In this document: in pieces, positions 677 to 53,756 of the stretch
How the letters are laid out: the number at the start of each line of letters is the position of its first letter
Numbering within the stretch: position 1 is the stretch's first letter
Source: Acidobacteriota bacterium
GTDB lineage: Bacteria; Acidobacteriota; Thermoanaerobaculia; Thermoanaerobaculales; Sulfomarinibacteraceae
Assembly: GCA_013152925.1 (NCBI GenBank)
Contig: JAADFK010000135.1
Location: forward strand, 1-55,465
Direction: 5' to 3'
DNA: 55,465 bases
Program-made: the position numbers and the translations under genes
The notes under the pieces: model-generated
Databases searched by the model: none
Told to the model about the DNA's origin: nothing
Seen by the model: the letters and a program-made list of their open reading frames with translations, nothing else

Positions 677-3010
677 ATGGGCAACGGGGAGAGCCGCCGG
701 AACACGCTGGACGAGTTGCTGAGCCGGGATCTCCGCGATGCCCGCTACCTGACGGCGGAGGAGGTGGCGGGGTCGTGGCGCAATGTATTTCCCGAAATGG
801 CGTCTTCCGTGCCGGCGCCGTACCCCATCTATACCCCCGATGAACGCCGCGTGGTGACCTATGGTTACCCGATCCTGGCGACCCAGGCCCTGGACCAGCT
901 CCGCCGGGAGCTGGCGACCATTGTCCGCACCGAGGTCTCCCAGCGCCTGGCCGACGAGAGGATCGACCAGGAAACGCGGGAGCGGATCATTGCCAACCGG
1001 ATGCGTTTCCTGGCGCGCGTCCAAAAGCTCATGGTCAACACCATGCTGACCGACTGGGGGCGGGGCCTGCTCGAGGTGCTGATACTCCACCTGACGGCGG
1101 AGGTGGCCGGAGCGGTCAGCCGGATTCCCGTGGTGGTCCGCCGTGCGTCGTCCGGTGTGGCCCAGGAAACGGCGGAGCGAATCCGGTACCAGGTGGCGTC
1201 CGTCTTTGCCGACCTGCTCCAGCGGGCCGGCCGGGAAGCCGGCGACCACCTCCAGGGTCTGGCGGGGAGCAAGGAGGCGCCGCGCCGATCCCGCTTCCTG
1301 GCAGCCCTGGCAATGGACCTGCTGCCCTTTGCGCGCCAGAGCCCGCCGGTCAACCCGGAGGAGCTCAGCGGCCTGCTGGAGGTCCGGTACCGGGATGAGG
1401 ATCCGCGGACGATCCATGCGGGCCGCCAGGCGCTGGTTCGCCTGGGAAAGCTCCTGGCCCACCGTCCGGAGCTGGCGGCCGCCCTGCGGGTCGCGACGGG
1501 AAACCAGTTCCCGCTGACAGCTCTGACGGCGCTTTTCCAGCCGGCCCTGTGGAAAGCGCTGCGCGAGATGGGTCTTCTCCGGGAGCTGGGCTTCGACGAA
1601 CGCCGGGCCGAGCTGCTCTCGGATCTCGGCCAGCGGGTCAAGCGTTTCGAGTTGGTGGCGGTTCTGCGCCGCCACCTGGAGATGGTCACCACCAGGGGCC
1701 GGGAGTACGTTCTGGCCTCCTCCCACCCCCCGAAGACAATCGCACGCTCCACCCGGCCCTTCGATTTCGCCCGGCCCGGCGTCGTGGGAACCGCCGTCCA
1801 GCGCTTCGGCCTTGTCTACGATCTGACGGCCTTCACGGAAACACTGGAGGTTGTCCGGAAGCAGGGGCCACTCGCCGAGGAGCGGGCCCTCCAGTTCATG
1901 TACGTCTTGCAGCAGCGGCTTGACGCCATTCGCCGCCGGCACCGCCTGACCTTCGAGAAATTTCTCGGGGACGGCGCCTTCTACTCCTCCCGGCGGGCGG
2001 TGAGGCTCCTGGCCGCCGGGGCCGAGATCCAGGTGGCCTACGACAGGCTGCGGCGCGCCGGATTTCCCTTCGATCGCGGGTTGAGGATGGCGTTGAACTA
2101 CGCCACCTACCACCTGCTTCCCATGGTTCCGGCGGGGGGCAGGGCCTCCCGCTTCGAGTTTTTCGGCCACGGGGTCGTCGAGCTGGCACGCCTGACCACT
2201 GGGAAGAGCGCGCGGGAAATCGACGAGATCGCCGAGTTTCTTCTGCACGCCGGGTACCCCTCGGCGGCGGTCGAGGATTTCCTGGCACCTCTGATCCAGG
2301 CCCGCCAGGGGATGGCGCCGCGGCCGGGCCGCGTGTACACGGCGCGCCTCGACGAGCACGGTGAGCTGATCAATGAGGGCATCGTCCTGACGGCGACCTT
2401 TGTGGAGGAGCTCCACCGGGAGCTCGGCGAGGCGCCGCTGCTCGTGGCCGACCTGGGGGACGAGGCGGCGCACGTGGTGCTCTCCCTGGACGAGGAGGCC
2501 ACCTCCCCGATCTTCGTCGCCCTCGGGTATCTGGGTGTGGCACGGCTCAAGGGCCTGCCTCCCCTGGAGATCGTCGAGGCCGTGGTGCTCGACGGGCCGC
2601 CGGCCCACGTGGCCTCGGCGCCCCAGGGAATTCGGCTGTTGAGCTTCCTCCGCCAGCTGGCGGCGAAGGGAGGTTCCACGCCGGTGGAGGTGCCGCAGGA
2701 TGTGCCGCCCGACCTGCTGGTGGCCACCTATCTTGGACCGGAGGGACGGCGGTTGTGGCTCTTCGGCCGCTACCGGGAGGCCGACGGCCTCCTGACCGAC
2801 GCCGTGGAGGTACCCCTCAAGCCGCCCGACATGGAGCGCGGCGAACCGGTGGAGATGTGGCTCTTCCGGCAGCGTGCCGACCTCTACCGCCTCTACCAGG
2901 GACTGTGCCGCACCGGTGAAGACGGCGCCACGCTCCCGCTGGCGTCCTTGCGACAGCGCCAGGGTTACATGGGGTTCTTCCTGACGGCGCCCCACCGCTC
3001 GCCGGCCTGA
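677..3010 (+). CDS. Uncharacterised 777-aa protein containing a divergent class III nucleotidyl cyclase-like domain
   Basis: Single long ORF; residues encoded at ~1795-2220 read LVYDLTAFTETLE / EKFLGDGAFYSS / FEFFGHGVVELARLTTG, parallel to the canonical cyclase motifs in the 49369 gene (LFADIVGFTSRCE / DKFIGDAVMAFF / YTVLGNTVNVAARLEEF). Confidence 0.8.
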   Translation: MGNGESRRNTLDELLSRDLRDARYLTAEEVAGSWRNVFPEMASSVPAPYPIYTPDERRVVTYGYPILATQALDQLRRELATIVRTEVSQRLADERIDQETRERIIANRMRFLARVQKLMVNTMLTDWGRGLLEVLILHLTAEVAGAVSRIPVVVRRASSGVAQETAERIRYQVASVFADLLQRAGREAGDHLQGLAGSKEAPRRSRFLAALAMDLLPFARQSPPVNPEELSGLLEVRYRDEDPRTIHAGRQALVRLGKLLAHRPELAAALRVATGNQFPLTALTALFQPALWKALREMGLLRELGFDERRAELLSDLGQRVKRFELVAVLRRHLEMVTTRGREYVLASSHPPKTIARSTRPFDFARPGVVGTAVQRFGLVYDLTAFTETLEVVRKQGPLAEERALQFMYVLQQRLDAIRRRHRLTFEKFLGDGAFYSSRRAVRLLAAGAEIQVAYDRLRRAGFPFDRGLRMALNYATYHLLPMVPAGGRASRFEFFGHGVVELARLTTGKSAREIDEIAEFLLHAGYPSAAVEDFLAPLIQARQGMAPRPGRVYTARLDEHGELINEGIVLTATFVEELHRELGEAPLLVADLGDEAAHVVLSLDEEATSPIFVALGYLGVARLKGLPPLEIVEAVVLDGPPAHVASAPQGIRLLSFLRQLAAKGGSTPVEVPQDVPPDLLVATYLGPEGRRLWLFGRYREADGLLTDAVEVPLKPPDMERGEPVEMWLFRQRADLYRLYQGLCRTGEDGATLPLASLRQRQGYMGFFLTAPHRSPA

Positions 3011-49368: not shown

Positions 49369-50949
49369 ATGTTCGACCTGGTATATGAAGACGGCGGGAT
49401 CAGCCACCGGGTGCCTCTCCGGCCCGGCCTCTCCCTGGGAAGGGCCAGTGACAACGATGTGGTGCTGCGCGATTTTTCCGTATCCCGCCACCATGCGCGG
49501 ATCGAGGGCGAAGACGAGTCCCCGAGGATTACCGACCTGGGCTCGACCAACGGCGTCAAGCTCAACGGAGAGTTCGTCACCTCGGCGGCGATCCGTCCGG
49601 GCGATGTCCTGACCATCGGCAGCTTCGAGCTCAACGTGGAGGAGCGCGGGGTGACCGCGGAGGGTCTTTCCTCGGCCACCTACCTGCGCCCCCTGGCGGA
49701 GTTCAAGAAGGAGTACGACCTGGAGGCCCCGCCGTCGGGGGCCGTACGCGGCCTGGGGGAGCGGGAGCGCGTCTTTGAGGTGCTGGCCCAGGTGGCCAAG
49801 GTCCTGCTCCAGGTGGAGGAGCTGCATCCCGTCCTCGAGAAGGTCATGGATCTGGTCTTCGCCCACCTCAAGGTGGACCGCGGCTTCATCGTCCTCTACG
49901 ACGACGAGGGCGAGCCCAAGCTGGAGCTGTGGCGCGCCCGCAAGCTCGAGGATGGTGACGAGCCCGAGGTCCCGCTCTCGCGGACCATCCTTGATATGGT
50001 CTCCGGCAAGAAGGTCGCCCTGCTGACCCACGACGCCCAGACCGACGGGCGCTTCGAGGCCGGACGGAGCATCCGGATCCACCAGATCCGTTCCGCCATG
50101 TGCGTCCCTCTGTGGCACCTCGAGGAGGTCATCGGCGTCATCTACGTGGATTCCCCGCTCCACGTGGGCTCCTTCTCCACGGCGGATCTGGACCTTCTCA
50201 CGGCGCTGGCCAACTACGCCGCCATCGCCATCGAACAGGCCCGGTTACGGGAGCGGATCAAGAGCGAGGAGCTCGTACGGCAGCGCCTGGAGCGCTACCA
50301 CTCCCCGGCCGTCATCGAGGCCGTCCTCACGGGTCCCGAGCACGGCACGCCGCCCGTCATGTCGCGGGAGACCTCCATCCTCTTCGCCGACATCGTCGGC
50401 TTCACCTCGCGTTGCGAGACCCTGCCTCCCGAAGAGGTCTCGGCCTTTCTCAACGAGTTTTTCTCCCGGGCCGCGGACGCCATCTTCAAGTACGGCGGGA
50501 CGCTGGACAAGTTCATCGGCGATGCGGTCATGGCGTTTTTCGGCGCGCCGCTGCCCCAGCCCGATCACGCCGAGCGGGCCGTTCGTGCGGCGATCACCCT
50601 GTCCCGCGCCCTGGAATCGTGGAACCGGGAACGTTCGCTGGAGGGGCTGGAGCCCGTGGAGGTCCGGACAGCGATCCACTCGGGTCCCGTTGTGGTGGGC
50701 GACATCGGCTCGGCGACCCGCGTCGATTACACGGTCCTCGGCAACACGGTCAACGTGGCGGCGCGCTTGGAGGAGTTCGTGGCCAAGCCCGGCTTGATCG
50801 TTCTTGGGGAGACCACCCAGGCCGCCGTCGCCCACATCTTCCCCACCGAGCACCTGGGGAACGTCCAGCTCAAGGGGCTGACGCGGAAGATCGCCGCGTA
50901 CCGGGTCAAGCTGGAGGAGATCAGCCACATCCAGGGGTCGGTTGCATGA
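49369..50949 (+). CDS. FHA-GAF-class III adenylate/guanylate cyclase
   Basis: FHA LSLGRASDNDVVLRDFSVSRHHARI..DLGSTNGVKLNG; GAF region; cyclase ILFADIVGFTSRCE..KFIGDAVMAFFGAP..YTVLGNTVNVAARLEEF. Confidence 0.96.
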   Translation: MFDLVYEDGGISHRVPLRPGLSLGRASDNDVVLRDFSVSRHHARIEGEDESPRITDLGSTNGVKLNGEFVTSAAIRPGDVLTIGSFELNVEERGVTAEGLSSATYLRPLAEFKKEYDLEAPPSGAVRGLGERERVFEVLAQVAKVLLQVEELHPVLEKVMDLVFAHLKVDRGFIVLYDDEGEPKLELWRARKLEDGDEPEVPLSRTILDMVSGKKVALLTHDAQTDGRFEAGRSIRIHQIRSAMCVPLWHLEEVIGVIYVDSPLHVGSFSTADLDLLTALANYAAIAIEQARLRERIKSEELVRQRLERYHSPAVIEAVLTGPEHGTPPVMSRETSILFADIVGFTSRCETLPPEEVSAFLNEFFSRAADAIFKYGGTLDKFIGDAVMAFFGAPLPQPDHAERAVRAAITLSRALESWNRERSLEGLEPVEVRTAIHSGPVVVGDIGSATRVDYTVLGNTVNVAARLEEFVAKPGLIVLGETTQAAVAHIFPTEHLGNVQLKGLTRKIAAYRVKLEEISHIQGSVA

Positions 50950-51506
50950 GAATGGGAGAATTGGTCTTCGTCACCTCGAACCTCGACAAGCTGCGCGAGG
51001 CGGAGGAGGTTCTCGGCGTCAGCCTGGACCATCACGCCCTGGACCTGGACGAGATCCAGTCCCTCGACCTTGAAAGCGTCGTGCGCCACAAGGCGCGCTC
51101 GGCCTGGGAACGGCTCCGGCGGCCGGTTCTCGTGGAGGATACCTCCCTGGAGCTCGCCGGCGCCGCCGGATTCCCCGGCCCGCTGGTGCGGTGGCTGCTG
51201 GTCAGCGTTGGACCCTCGGGGATCGCTCGCGTCGCCCACGCCTTTGCCGATCCCCGTGCCACGGTGCGGTGCATGGCCTGCGCCTGCGACGGCGGCGAGG
51301 AGATCCTGGGTCTCGGCGTGGTCCGCGGCCGGATCGCCGAGGCGCCCAGGGGCCGCAAGGGCTTCGGCTGGGACAGCGTCTTCGAGCCCGAGGGCGCCCG
51401 CGGCCGCACCTACGCCGAGATGAGCCGGGCCGAAAAGAACGCCATCTCCCACCGCCGACGCGCCCTGGAGTCCCTCAAGTCCGCCCTCCTCGGCACCGCC
51501 CCCTGA
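50946..51506 (+). CDS. rdgB: RdgB/HAM1-type non-canonical purine NTP pyrophosphatase
   Basis: LVFVTSNLDKLREAEEVLG; VLVEDTSLEL; GFGWDSVFEPEGARGRTYAEMSRAEKNAISHRRRAL. Confidence 0.93.
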   Translation: MRMGELVFVTSNLDKLREAEEVLGVSLDHHALDLDEIQSLDLESVVRHKARSAWERLRRPVLVEDTSLELAGAAGFPGPLVRWLLVSVGPSGIARVAHAFADPRATVRCMACACDGGEEILGLGVVRGRIAEAPRGRKGFGWDSVFEPEGARGRTYAEMSRAEKNAISHRRRALESLKSALLGTAP

Positions 51507-51559
51507 CGCGGCCGCCGCCACCGTCGGGAAGTCCTCGACCGGAGCTCCCGTCCCATCCC

Positions 51560-51699
51560 GTCATCCCGGCCGTATCGGTGCGGAGCGCCGCGGAGCGGAG
51601 GGATCTCACAGCCCATGGGCGGGGCCGGGTTTTTGGGCGGTTGGCGGTTGTTGAGGAGATCCCTCCACTCGTTCGCTACGCTCGCTCGGTCGGGATGAC
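51560..51699. repeat. BIME-like paired inverted REP elements
   Basis: gtcatcccggcc...gcggagcggagggatctc then gagatccctccactcgttcgctacgctcgctcggtcgggatgac in inverted orientation. Confidence 0.85.
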
Positions 51700-51748
51700 A
51701 GAGGGGGGGCATCCCGGCCGGAGCGGTATGGGACACCAATCCCACCCC

Positions 51749-51873
51749 GTCATCCCGCCCGGAGCGCAGCGTCCAACCCATCCCGTCATCCCGGCCGTAT
51801 CGGTGCGCAGCGCCCGTCCCTTCCTGTCATCCCGACCGGAGCGGTGCGGAGCGCCGCGAAGTGGAGGGATCTC
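51749..51873. repeat. Further REP-like units, ending ...gcgccgcgaagtggagggatctc
   Basis: Three gtcatcccg(c/g/a)cc.g... units in direct orientation. Confidence 0.75.
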
Positions 51874-51920
51874 ACCGGGTGTCGCGGGAGCCGGGGTTCT
51901 CCGGCCGCCGGCCGGTGGTG

Positions 51921-51940
51921 GGGAGAAAAACAGTGTCCCC
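51921..51940. repeat. Isolated copy of RAYT-element end (GGGAGAAAAACAGTGTCCCC)
   Basis: Matches 13381-13400 (agagaaaaacaatgtccctt) at most positions. Confidence 0.6.
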
Positions 51941-52080
51941 AAATCTCCCAAATCTCGCTCGGCAATCTGCACGGCTTTGTGATCATCGAGGGCGGCAGGG
52001 TCTGACCCCTTCACCCCTGCTCCGGAAGTCGTCAATGCTCCGGGCCACTGCCGCAGTCCCCCTGTGCTACCCTCCGCGCC

Positions 52081-52836
52081 ATGCGGGAGGCGTTGCTCTC
52101 CAAACGGTCCGGGGAGATCCGGGGGATGTTCGGGCGGATCGCGCACCGCTACGACCTGCTCAACCGGGTGCTGTCGCTGGGCCAGGACGTGCTCTGGCGG
52201 CGGGCGCTCTCGCGGGCGGTGGTCGGATCGGGCGCGCGGCGGGTGCTCGACGTGTGCACGGGGACGGCCGACGTGGCGCTGGCGCTGCCCGAGGGAGTGG
52301 GCGTGCTGGGAACCGACTTCTGCCTGCCCATGCTGGCCCGGGGTCGGCGGAAGGTGTTGGCCCGCCACCGGCGCGTGCCGCTTTTCGCCGGGGACGCGCT
52401 GGCGCTCCCGGTGGCCGGGGGCTCGGCGGACGCGGTGACGGTGGCCTTCGGAATCCGCAACTTCGAGGACCTGGAAGCCGGCCTCGCCGAGCTCGTCCGG
52501 GTGCTCCGGCCGGGCGGGTGGCTGTTCATCCTGGAGTTCTCGCAGCCGCGTGGGCCCCTGGCGCCCCTCCTTGGCTGGTGGGCGCGGACGGTGCCGCCGC
52601 GGGTGGGCCGCTGGCTGTCGGGCGATCCCGAGGCCTACAGCTACCTTCCCGCCTCGGTGTCCGCCTTTCCGAGCCTGGAGCGGATGACGGGCGTGCTCGA
52701 AGCCATCGGACTCGAGGAGGTCAGCGGCCGGACCTTGACGGGTGGTGTGGCCGCCCTCTACGGTGGCCGGCGTCCGGAGCTCTGGAACGCCCCCGTGCGA
52801 TCCGTGGCGGTGCAGGAACGGGTGGAGGTCAACTGA
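52081..52836 (+). CDS. ubiE: Ubiquinone/menaquinone C-methyltransferase
   Basis: [92 protein letters not shown]. Confidence 0.96.
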
Positions 52837-53756
52837 TGGAAGACAAGATCCTCGACGGCAAGAAGGTCGCGGCCCAGATTCGGGCCGAGGTGGCGGAGCA
52901 GGTGGCCGAGCTGGCGCCGCAGGGCGTGGTGCCGCGGCTCGACGCGGTGCTGGTGGGCGACGACCCGGCCTCCAGGGTTTACGTGGGCTCCAAGGCGCGG
53001 ACCTGTGCCAAGCTGGGCATGGCCTCGGAGACCCACGTGCTGCCCGGTGACACGCCCCAGGCCGGGCTCGAGGCGCTGATCGACCGGCTCAATGCCGATC
53101 CCGAGGTGGACGGGATCCTCGTGCAGCTTCCGCTGCCCGGGGGGATCGACACCCACGCGGTCCTGGACCGCATCGACCCGGCCAAGGACGTGGATGGCTT
53201 CCATCCAGTCAACACGGGCCTTCTCCAGCAGGGCCGGCCGGCCTTGGTGCCCTGCACGCCCGCGGGGATCCTGGAGATGCTCGACCGCGAGAGGATCGCC
53301 ATCGAGGGCCGCCGGGCCGTGGTGGTGGGCCGTTCGGACATCGTCGGCAAGCCTATGGCCATGCTTCTGCTCCACCGGCACGCCACGGTGACCCTCTGTC
53401 ATTCGCGGACGCGGGACCTCCCCGCCGTGACGCGGGAGGCTGACATCCTGGTGGCCGCCGTGGGGCGGCTGGCCATGATCGGCCCCGGGCACGTGAAGGA
53501 GGGCGCCGTGGTCATCGACGTGGGGATCCACCGGCTGACGGAGCTGAGCGAGGTCGAGCGTCTCTTCCCCGGCGATGCCGCGCGAAGGGAGCGTTTCGAG
53601 TCCAAAGGCTCGGTTCTGACGGGGGACGTGGACTTCGTGCGGGTGGCGCCCATCGCCTCCCGGATCACGCCGGTTCCCGGCGGCGTGGGCCCACTGACCA
53701 TCGCCATGCTGATGGCCAACACGGTCCGGGCGGCGCGCGCCCGGCGGGGAGCGTGA
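52836..53756 (+). CDS. folD: Methylenetetrahydrofolate dehydrogenase/cyclohydrolase
   Basis: [85 protein letters not shown]. Confidence 0.98.

Follow-up and report, generated by a model that had tools for sequence, protein, structure and literature searches.

The P0001 gene and its surroundings

The window analysed here, a stretch of 55,465 nucleotides from an Acidobacteriota bacterium, carries an open reading frame for a 777-residue protein, P0001, between the C-terminal part of ComM and tyrA on the opposite strand, and, farther along, a canonical FHA-GAF-class III cyclase that serves as the reference for comparison (Table 1). The frame is as described in the first-pass annotation, which was made from the sequence of the window, and it encodes a real conserved protein: it is open throughout, and its product shares 57% down to about 22% identity with homologues across the class over most of its length.

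Table 1. Features of P0001 and the reference cyclase in the window. Fractions are homologues that carry the residue.
Feature	Position	Strand	Remarks
P0001, divergent cyclase-like protein, 777 aa	677..3010	+	ATG start; homologues in 68/101 related genomes
N-terminal region, residues 1-355	677..1741	+	Putative input domain; no named family
Divergent class III cyclase homology domain with insertion, residues ~374-636	1796..2584	+	hhalign 94.9%
D382, metal Asp 1	1820..1822	+	50/50; YDLtaF aligned to aDIvgF
K428, purine-pocket Lys	1958..1960	+	50/50; EKfLGDG aligned to dKFIGDA
D432, metal Asp 2	1970..1972	+	49/50; Gly in L044 only
E494, second purine-specifying position	2156..2158	+	Glu in 50/50
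V501, transition-state Asn position	2177..2179	+	Val 49/50, Thr 1/50, Asn 0/50
R505, transition-state/phosphate Arg	2189..2191	+	49/50; Ala in L044 only
Segment R505 to K625	2192..2548	+	~120 aa vs ~36 in the cyclase at 49369
K625 of LKG	2549..2551	+	49/50; alignment here of low posterior confidence
C-terminal region, residues 640-777	2594..3007	+	Unnamed; conservation mostly inside the order; no cyclase similarity
Canonical FHA-GAF-class III cyclase (reference)	49369..50949	+	Sole PF00211 match in the genome

The family occurs in all 39 genomes of the order that were searched (P0001's own included) and in scattered families of the class, and a profile of its core matched 17 of 297 genomes of the phylum, every one in the same class. 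The gene is mostly single-copy; some genomes of taxonomic family f7 hold a second paralogue (L045, L046 and L047) that forms its own clade. In the gene tree of the core, sequences cluster by taxonomic family (f1, f2, f7 and f13 are each monophyletic), which is what vertical descent would produce. Searches of viral contigs and plasmids returned no match to the family, and a scan of GTDB contigs with single-sequence patterns found no relatives of P0001.

Residues P46, P48, E56, G63, P65, N121, L230 and R331 are conserved in the N-terminal region, which has neither cyclase nor GGDEF profile similarity. The large flanks had earlier been left without a name, and neither has a family match still. 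A maximum 19-residue hydropathy of 0.73-1.94 across the homologues indicates that there is no clear membrane helix.

In other genomes the neighbours of the gene include SAICAR synthase, a DinG-type helicase, RsgA and others, and among the neighbours (tyrA, an aminotransferase, ComM, SAICAR synthase, the helicase and other housekeeping genes) no output partner for a cyclic nucleotide was found. In the order, the FHA-GAF-cyclase and the folD gene after it form a conserved block (49369-53756 in the window, and L101-L108). In the sister family, where the P0001 gene and the canonical cyclase lie about 9-11 kb apart, the block also joins coaE, a sulfatase, ComM and the P0001 gene to cyclase-folD, all inside some 10 kb. 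A functional link between P0001 and the canonical cyclase was considered and set aside: we read the linkage as inherited gene order because the block holds folD, coaE, the sulfatase and ComM, and because the window's cyclase also precedes folD.

Proteins with cNMP-binding domains are found in nearly all relatives, including every searched genome that has the P0001 family, with seven matches in P0001's own genome; receptors exist, yet a canonical cyclase could serve them. Genus g24 of family f8 (e.g., G045, G048 and G069) has neither PF00211 cyclases nor the P0001 family and lacks nearly all cNMP-binding domains, as if the whole of cyclic-nucleotide signalling had been lost, whereas other families without the P0001 gene keep both cyclases and receptors. 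Since g24 is a single lineage and these other families lack only the gene, co-occurrence does not discriminate.

A divergent class III cyclase domain

Searches that start from a single sequence miss the domain. P0001 itself returned zero matches in Pfam, NCBIfam and the PDB, even at E values up to 10, and nothing meaningful came from Pfam, NCBIfam, PADLOC or the PDB when the protein, the full alignment or the core was used. Sequence-to-profile searches of the family never reached a cyclase, the PF00211 HMM included, and a single-sequence AlphaFold model was not usable (pLDDT 43.7).

Profile-profile comparison gave a different picture. The family profile was built from 48 homologous cores (residues 340-660), and the cyclase profile from 31 canonical class III domains taken from the same and related genomes and aligned separately from the 50 P0001 homologues. 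The two matched colinearly over 116 columns (hhalign 94.9%, P 4.3e-8, score 60.0), a stretch that takes in the two metal sites, the RIGIN-like R-x-A-x-N strand and the G...R helix. With a low cut-off on the posterior, the alignment runs on, at low confidence, to the final LG..LKG strand. Order-level members alone scored 52.3 and class-level members alone 56.5. By comparison, 150 column-shuffled cyclase alignments scored at most 23.5, the reversed cyclase alignment 17.4, and 28 unrelated family alignments from the gene neighbourhoods at most 23.4, while the N-terminal and C-terminal parts of the family scored 19.3 and 9.8 against the cyclases. A GGDEF profile from the same genome did not match the family (hhalign 0.2%, score 14.9). 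Because the real score stands far above the shuffles, the reversal, the decoys and GGDEF, sequence comparison gives good support to describing the family as conserved proteins that contain a divergent class III cyclase domain. The possibility that the N- or C-terminal part holds another cyclase domain, in the style of paired cyclases, was also considered and rejected (hhalign 0.9% and 0.1%).

These results bear out the cryptic cyclase domain proposed in the first-pass annotation, where three segments of P0001 (residues 376-393, 425-438 and 493-511) had been aligned by eye to the cyclase at 49369; the profile comparison reproduces that alignment. The claims that both metal-binding Asp residues and the Arg are kept, and that the transition-state Asn is replaced, likewise hold for P0001 and for nearly all of the family, in which 48 of the 50 homologues retain the whole catalytic set with V501 included.

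The active site and its known counterparts

Conservation in the family is concentrated at the catalytic motifs, with a mean entropy of 0.8-1.3 bits in the blocks that begin at residues 361, 421, 461 and 501, compared with about 2-3 across most of the flanking sequence. The full signature D-K-D-E-V-R-GK-K is unchanged in the 48 homologues mentioned above, and one other differs by V501T. K625 is presumably the counterpart of the Lys that binds the triphosphate close to the C-terminus of class III domains. Taken together, the sequences support a metal and nucleotide site that is intact in the P0001 family. A distant 569-residue homologue at L044:3391-5097 (+) has Gly for D432 and Ala for R505 and is devoid of the insertion after the Arg; judged by these residues, it is a natural degenerate member of the family, which P0001 is not.

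The metal Asp pair, the pocket Lys, the transition-state Arg and, probably, the LKG Lys are shared with class III cyclases (PF00211) and occur in the same order. Class III enzymes specify their substrate through a pair of residues, Lys-Asp or Lys-Thr for ATP, and Glu-Cys and variants for GTP. P0001 departs from the PF00211 cyclases in lying below Pfam detection, in carrying Glu at the Asp/Thr purine position (Asp in mammalian adenylyl cyclases, Thr in the cyclase at 49369) and in having Val for the Asn. It differs from the cyclase at 49369, too, in that the stretch from the Arg helix to LKG is longer by about 84 residues and FHA or GAF domains are lacking. The segment from R505 to K625 holds a conserved TTGK..E....GY....F..P....R.....GeLiNEGIV motif that is foreign to ordinary class III domains, and R376, E427, R439, Y455 and E502, all invariant in the family, together with the near-invariant G509-K510, lack an obvious equivalent in the canonical cyclases.

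The K428-E494 (Lys-Glu) pair, invariant in the family and non-canonical, is also found in mycobacterial DUF2652 proteins, which carry two metal Asp residues, the Lys-Glu pair, Ile for the Asn, and the Arg (Ramakrishnan et al. 2016, PMC4886424). These are predicted cyclases, and both ATP and GTP were proposed as possible substrates (PMC4886424). P0001 resembles DUF2652 (PF10851) in the D,D / K,E / Ile / R residue set, with Val in place of Ile, and the spacing from the conserved Gly is the same in both (E at G-3, I in DUF2652 at G+4, R at G+8). DUF2652 proteins, however, are mostly single-domain and of about 250 residues, the PF10851 model matched none of 43 P0001 family members, and the direct comparison of the two families was not significant (hhalign 0.9%, with only four DUF2652 sequences used). 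As direct profile similarity is undetectable with four sequences, we treat the resemblance as a shared active-site variant and not as shared membership. In one 508-residue open frame (L155), a DUF2652 cyclase-like domain is in frame with a downstream methyltransferase-like region.

Pycsar enzymes offer a further comparison, as they combine the class III fold and both Asp residues with other base-reading residues (PMC11224242). P0001 is similar in placing the two metal Asp residues on a class III-type core with altered base-reading residues. Pycsar enzymes, however, belong to defence systems with a PycTM or PycTIR effector, whereas the P0001 gene is chromosomal, conserved and set among housekeeping genes; no PycTM or PycTIR effector was found beside it among the neighbours examined, and the PADLOC cyclase models gave no convincing match to the family (one member at E 0.067).

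Possible catalysis and its alternatives

Our reading of the sequences, which we hold at about even chances, is that P0001 is a soluble, divergent and probably catalytic purine-nucleotide cyclase with a putative N-terminal input domain. The protein would stand alone and probably form a homodimer. One chain would supply D382 and D432 to hold two metal ions, and its partner K428 and E494 to read the purine base, the Lys-Glu pair perhaps favouring ATP. R505 and K625 would hold the phosphates, and cyclisation of the nucleoside triphosphate would proceed without the Asn normally present. Control probably lies with an input domain formed by the N-terminal 355 residues, though this is a guess from the architecture.

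Whether a purine nucleotide is in fact turned over is, in our estimate, close to evenly balanced. Glu is unusual at the second purine-reading position, as is Val in place of the Asn, and in combination they could mean binding without turnover; the site could also be altered or blocked by the large insertion that precedes the last strands. On the other side, Ma1120 of M. avium is an active adenylyl cyclase whose Asn position is occupied by Ala, and introducing Asn there drastically lowered or abolished its activity (PMC4215837). P0001 and Ma1120 are alike in being without the transition-state Asn. As Ma1120 is active without it, the Asn is not a strict requirement, and, by this analogy, its loss alone is compatible with activity. 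Since the residues that bind metal and nucleotide are retained in nearly all relatives, a signalling enzyme that has gone unrecognised appears more likely for P0001 than a dead copy.

The first-pass annotation had favoured a catalytically altered or nucleotide-sensing pseudo-cyclase. An altered site is indeed present (Asp/Thr to Glu, Asn to Val), but the 50 homologues hardly vary at the metal Asp residues, the pocket Lys, the Arg and the distal Lys, a pattern not typical of a dead site, and the prefix 'pseudo' does not follow from the missing Asn, given the active Ma1120 and the same residue set in DUF2652. A pseudo-cyclase would bind nucleoside triphosphate and metal without cyclisation, binding serving to switch the flanking regions. 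The absence of the transition-state Asn from all 50 homologues, the changed second purine residue and the large, unnamed flanks would all fit such a sensor, and the loss of D432, R505 and the insertion in L044 implies that catalysis has probably been lost within the family. Both metal Asp residues and the Arg are nonetheless invariant in the other 49, and a pure sensor does not obviously need both Asp residues; an enzyme that is active without the Asn (PMC4215837) weighs on the same side. We therefore consider a pseudo-cyclase possible though somewhat doubtful, and not the better reading of P0001.

The cyclase scaffold might instead support another metal-dependent nucleotidyl reaction, such as cyclisation of a pyrimidine, hydrolysis of a nucleotide or transfer to another acceptor. 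The class III fold does switch substrates, as in Pycsar (PMC11224242), and the family-specific residues between R376 and K510 described above would be in keeping with a different chemistry. The Lys-Glu pair, however, is of the type expected for a purine, and with no convincing PADLOC cyclase match and no adjoining effector gene we regard such a reaction as unlikely. That the similarity reflects another palm-fold nucleotidyl domain such as GGDEF, whose fold is related to that of class III domains, or chance, is highly improbable given the GGDEF score of 14.9 and the ceiling of 23.5 for shuffles and decoys.

Returning to the reading of P0001 as a cyclase, we tentatively extend it, from sequence, to a family of stand-alone class III-type enzymes, restricted to its taxonomic class, with a Lys-Glu/Val-Arg site and a putative sensory domain, which may produce a cyclic nucleotide, purine or other, in a pathway distinct from that of the sole canonical cyclase. 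Although no curated name covers it and neither Pfam nor NCBIfam detects it, the family occurs in every searched genome of the order. If active, it would give genomes with seemingly one cyclase another, overlooked supply of cyclic nucleotide. In that case it would also serve as a natural experiment on the capabilities of Glu and Val at positions called substrate-specifying and transition-state stabilising, for which the degenerate relative L044 provides a built-in comparison.
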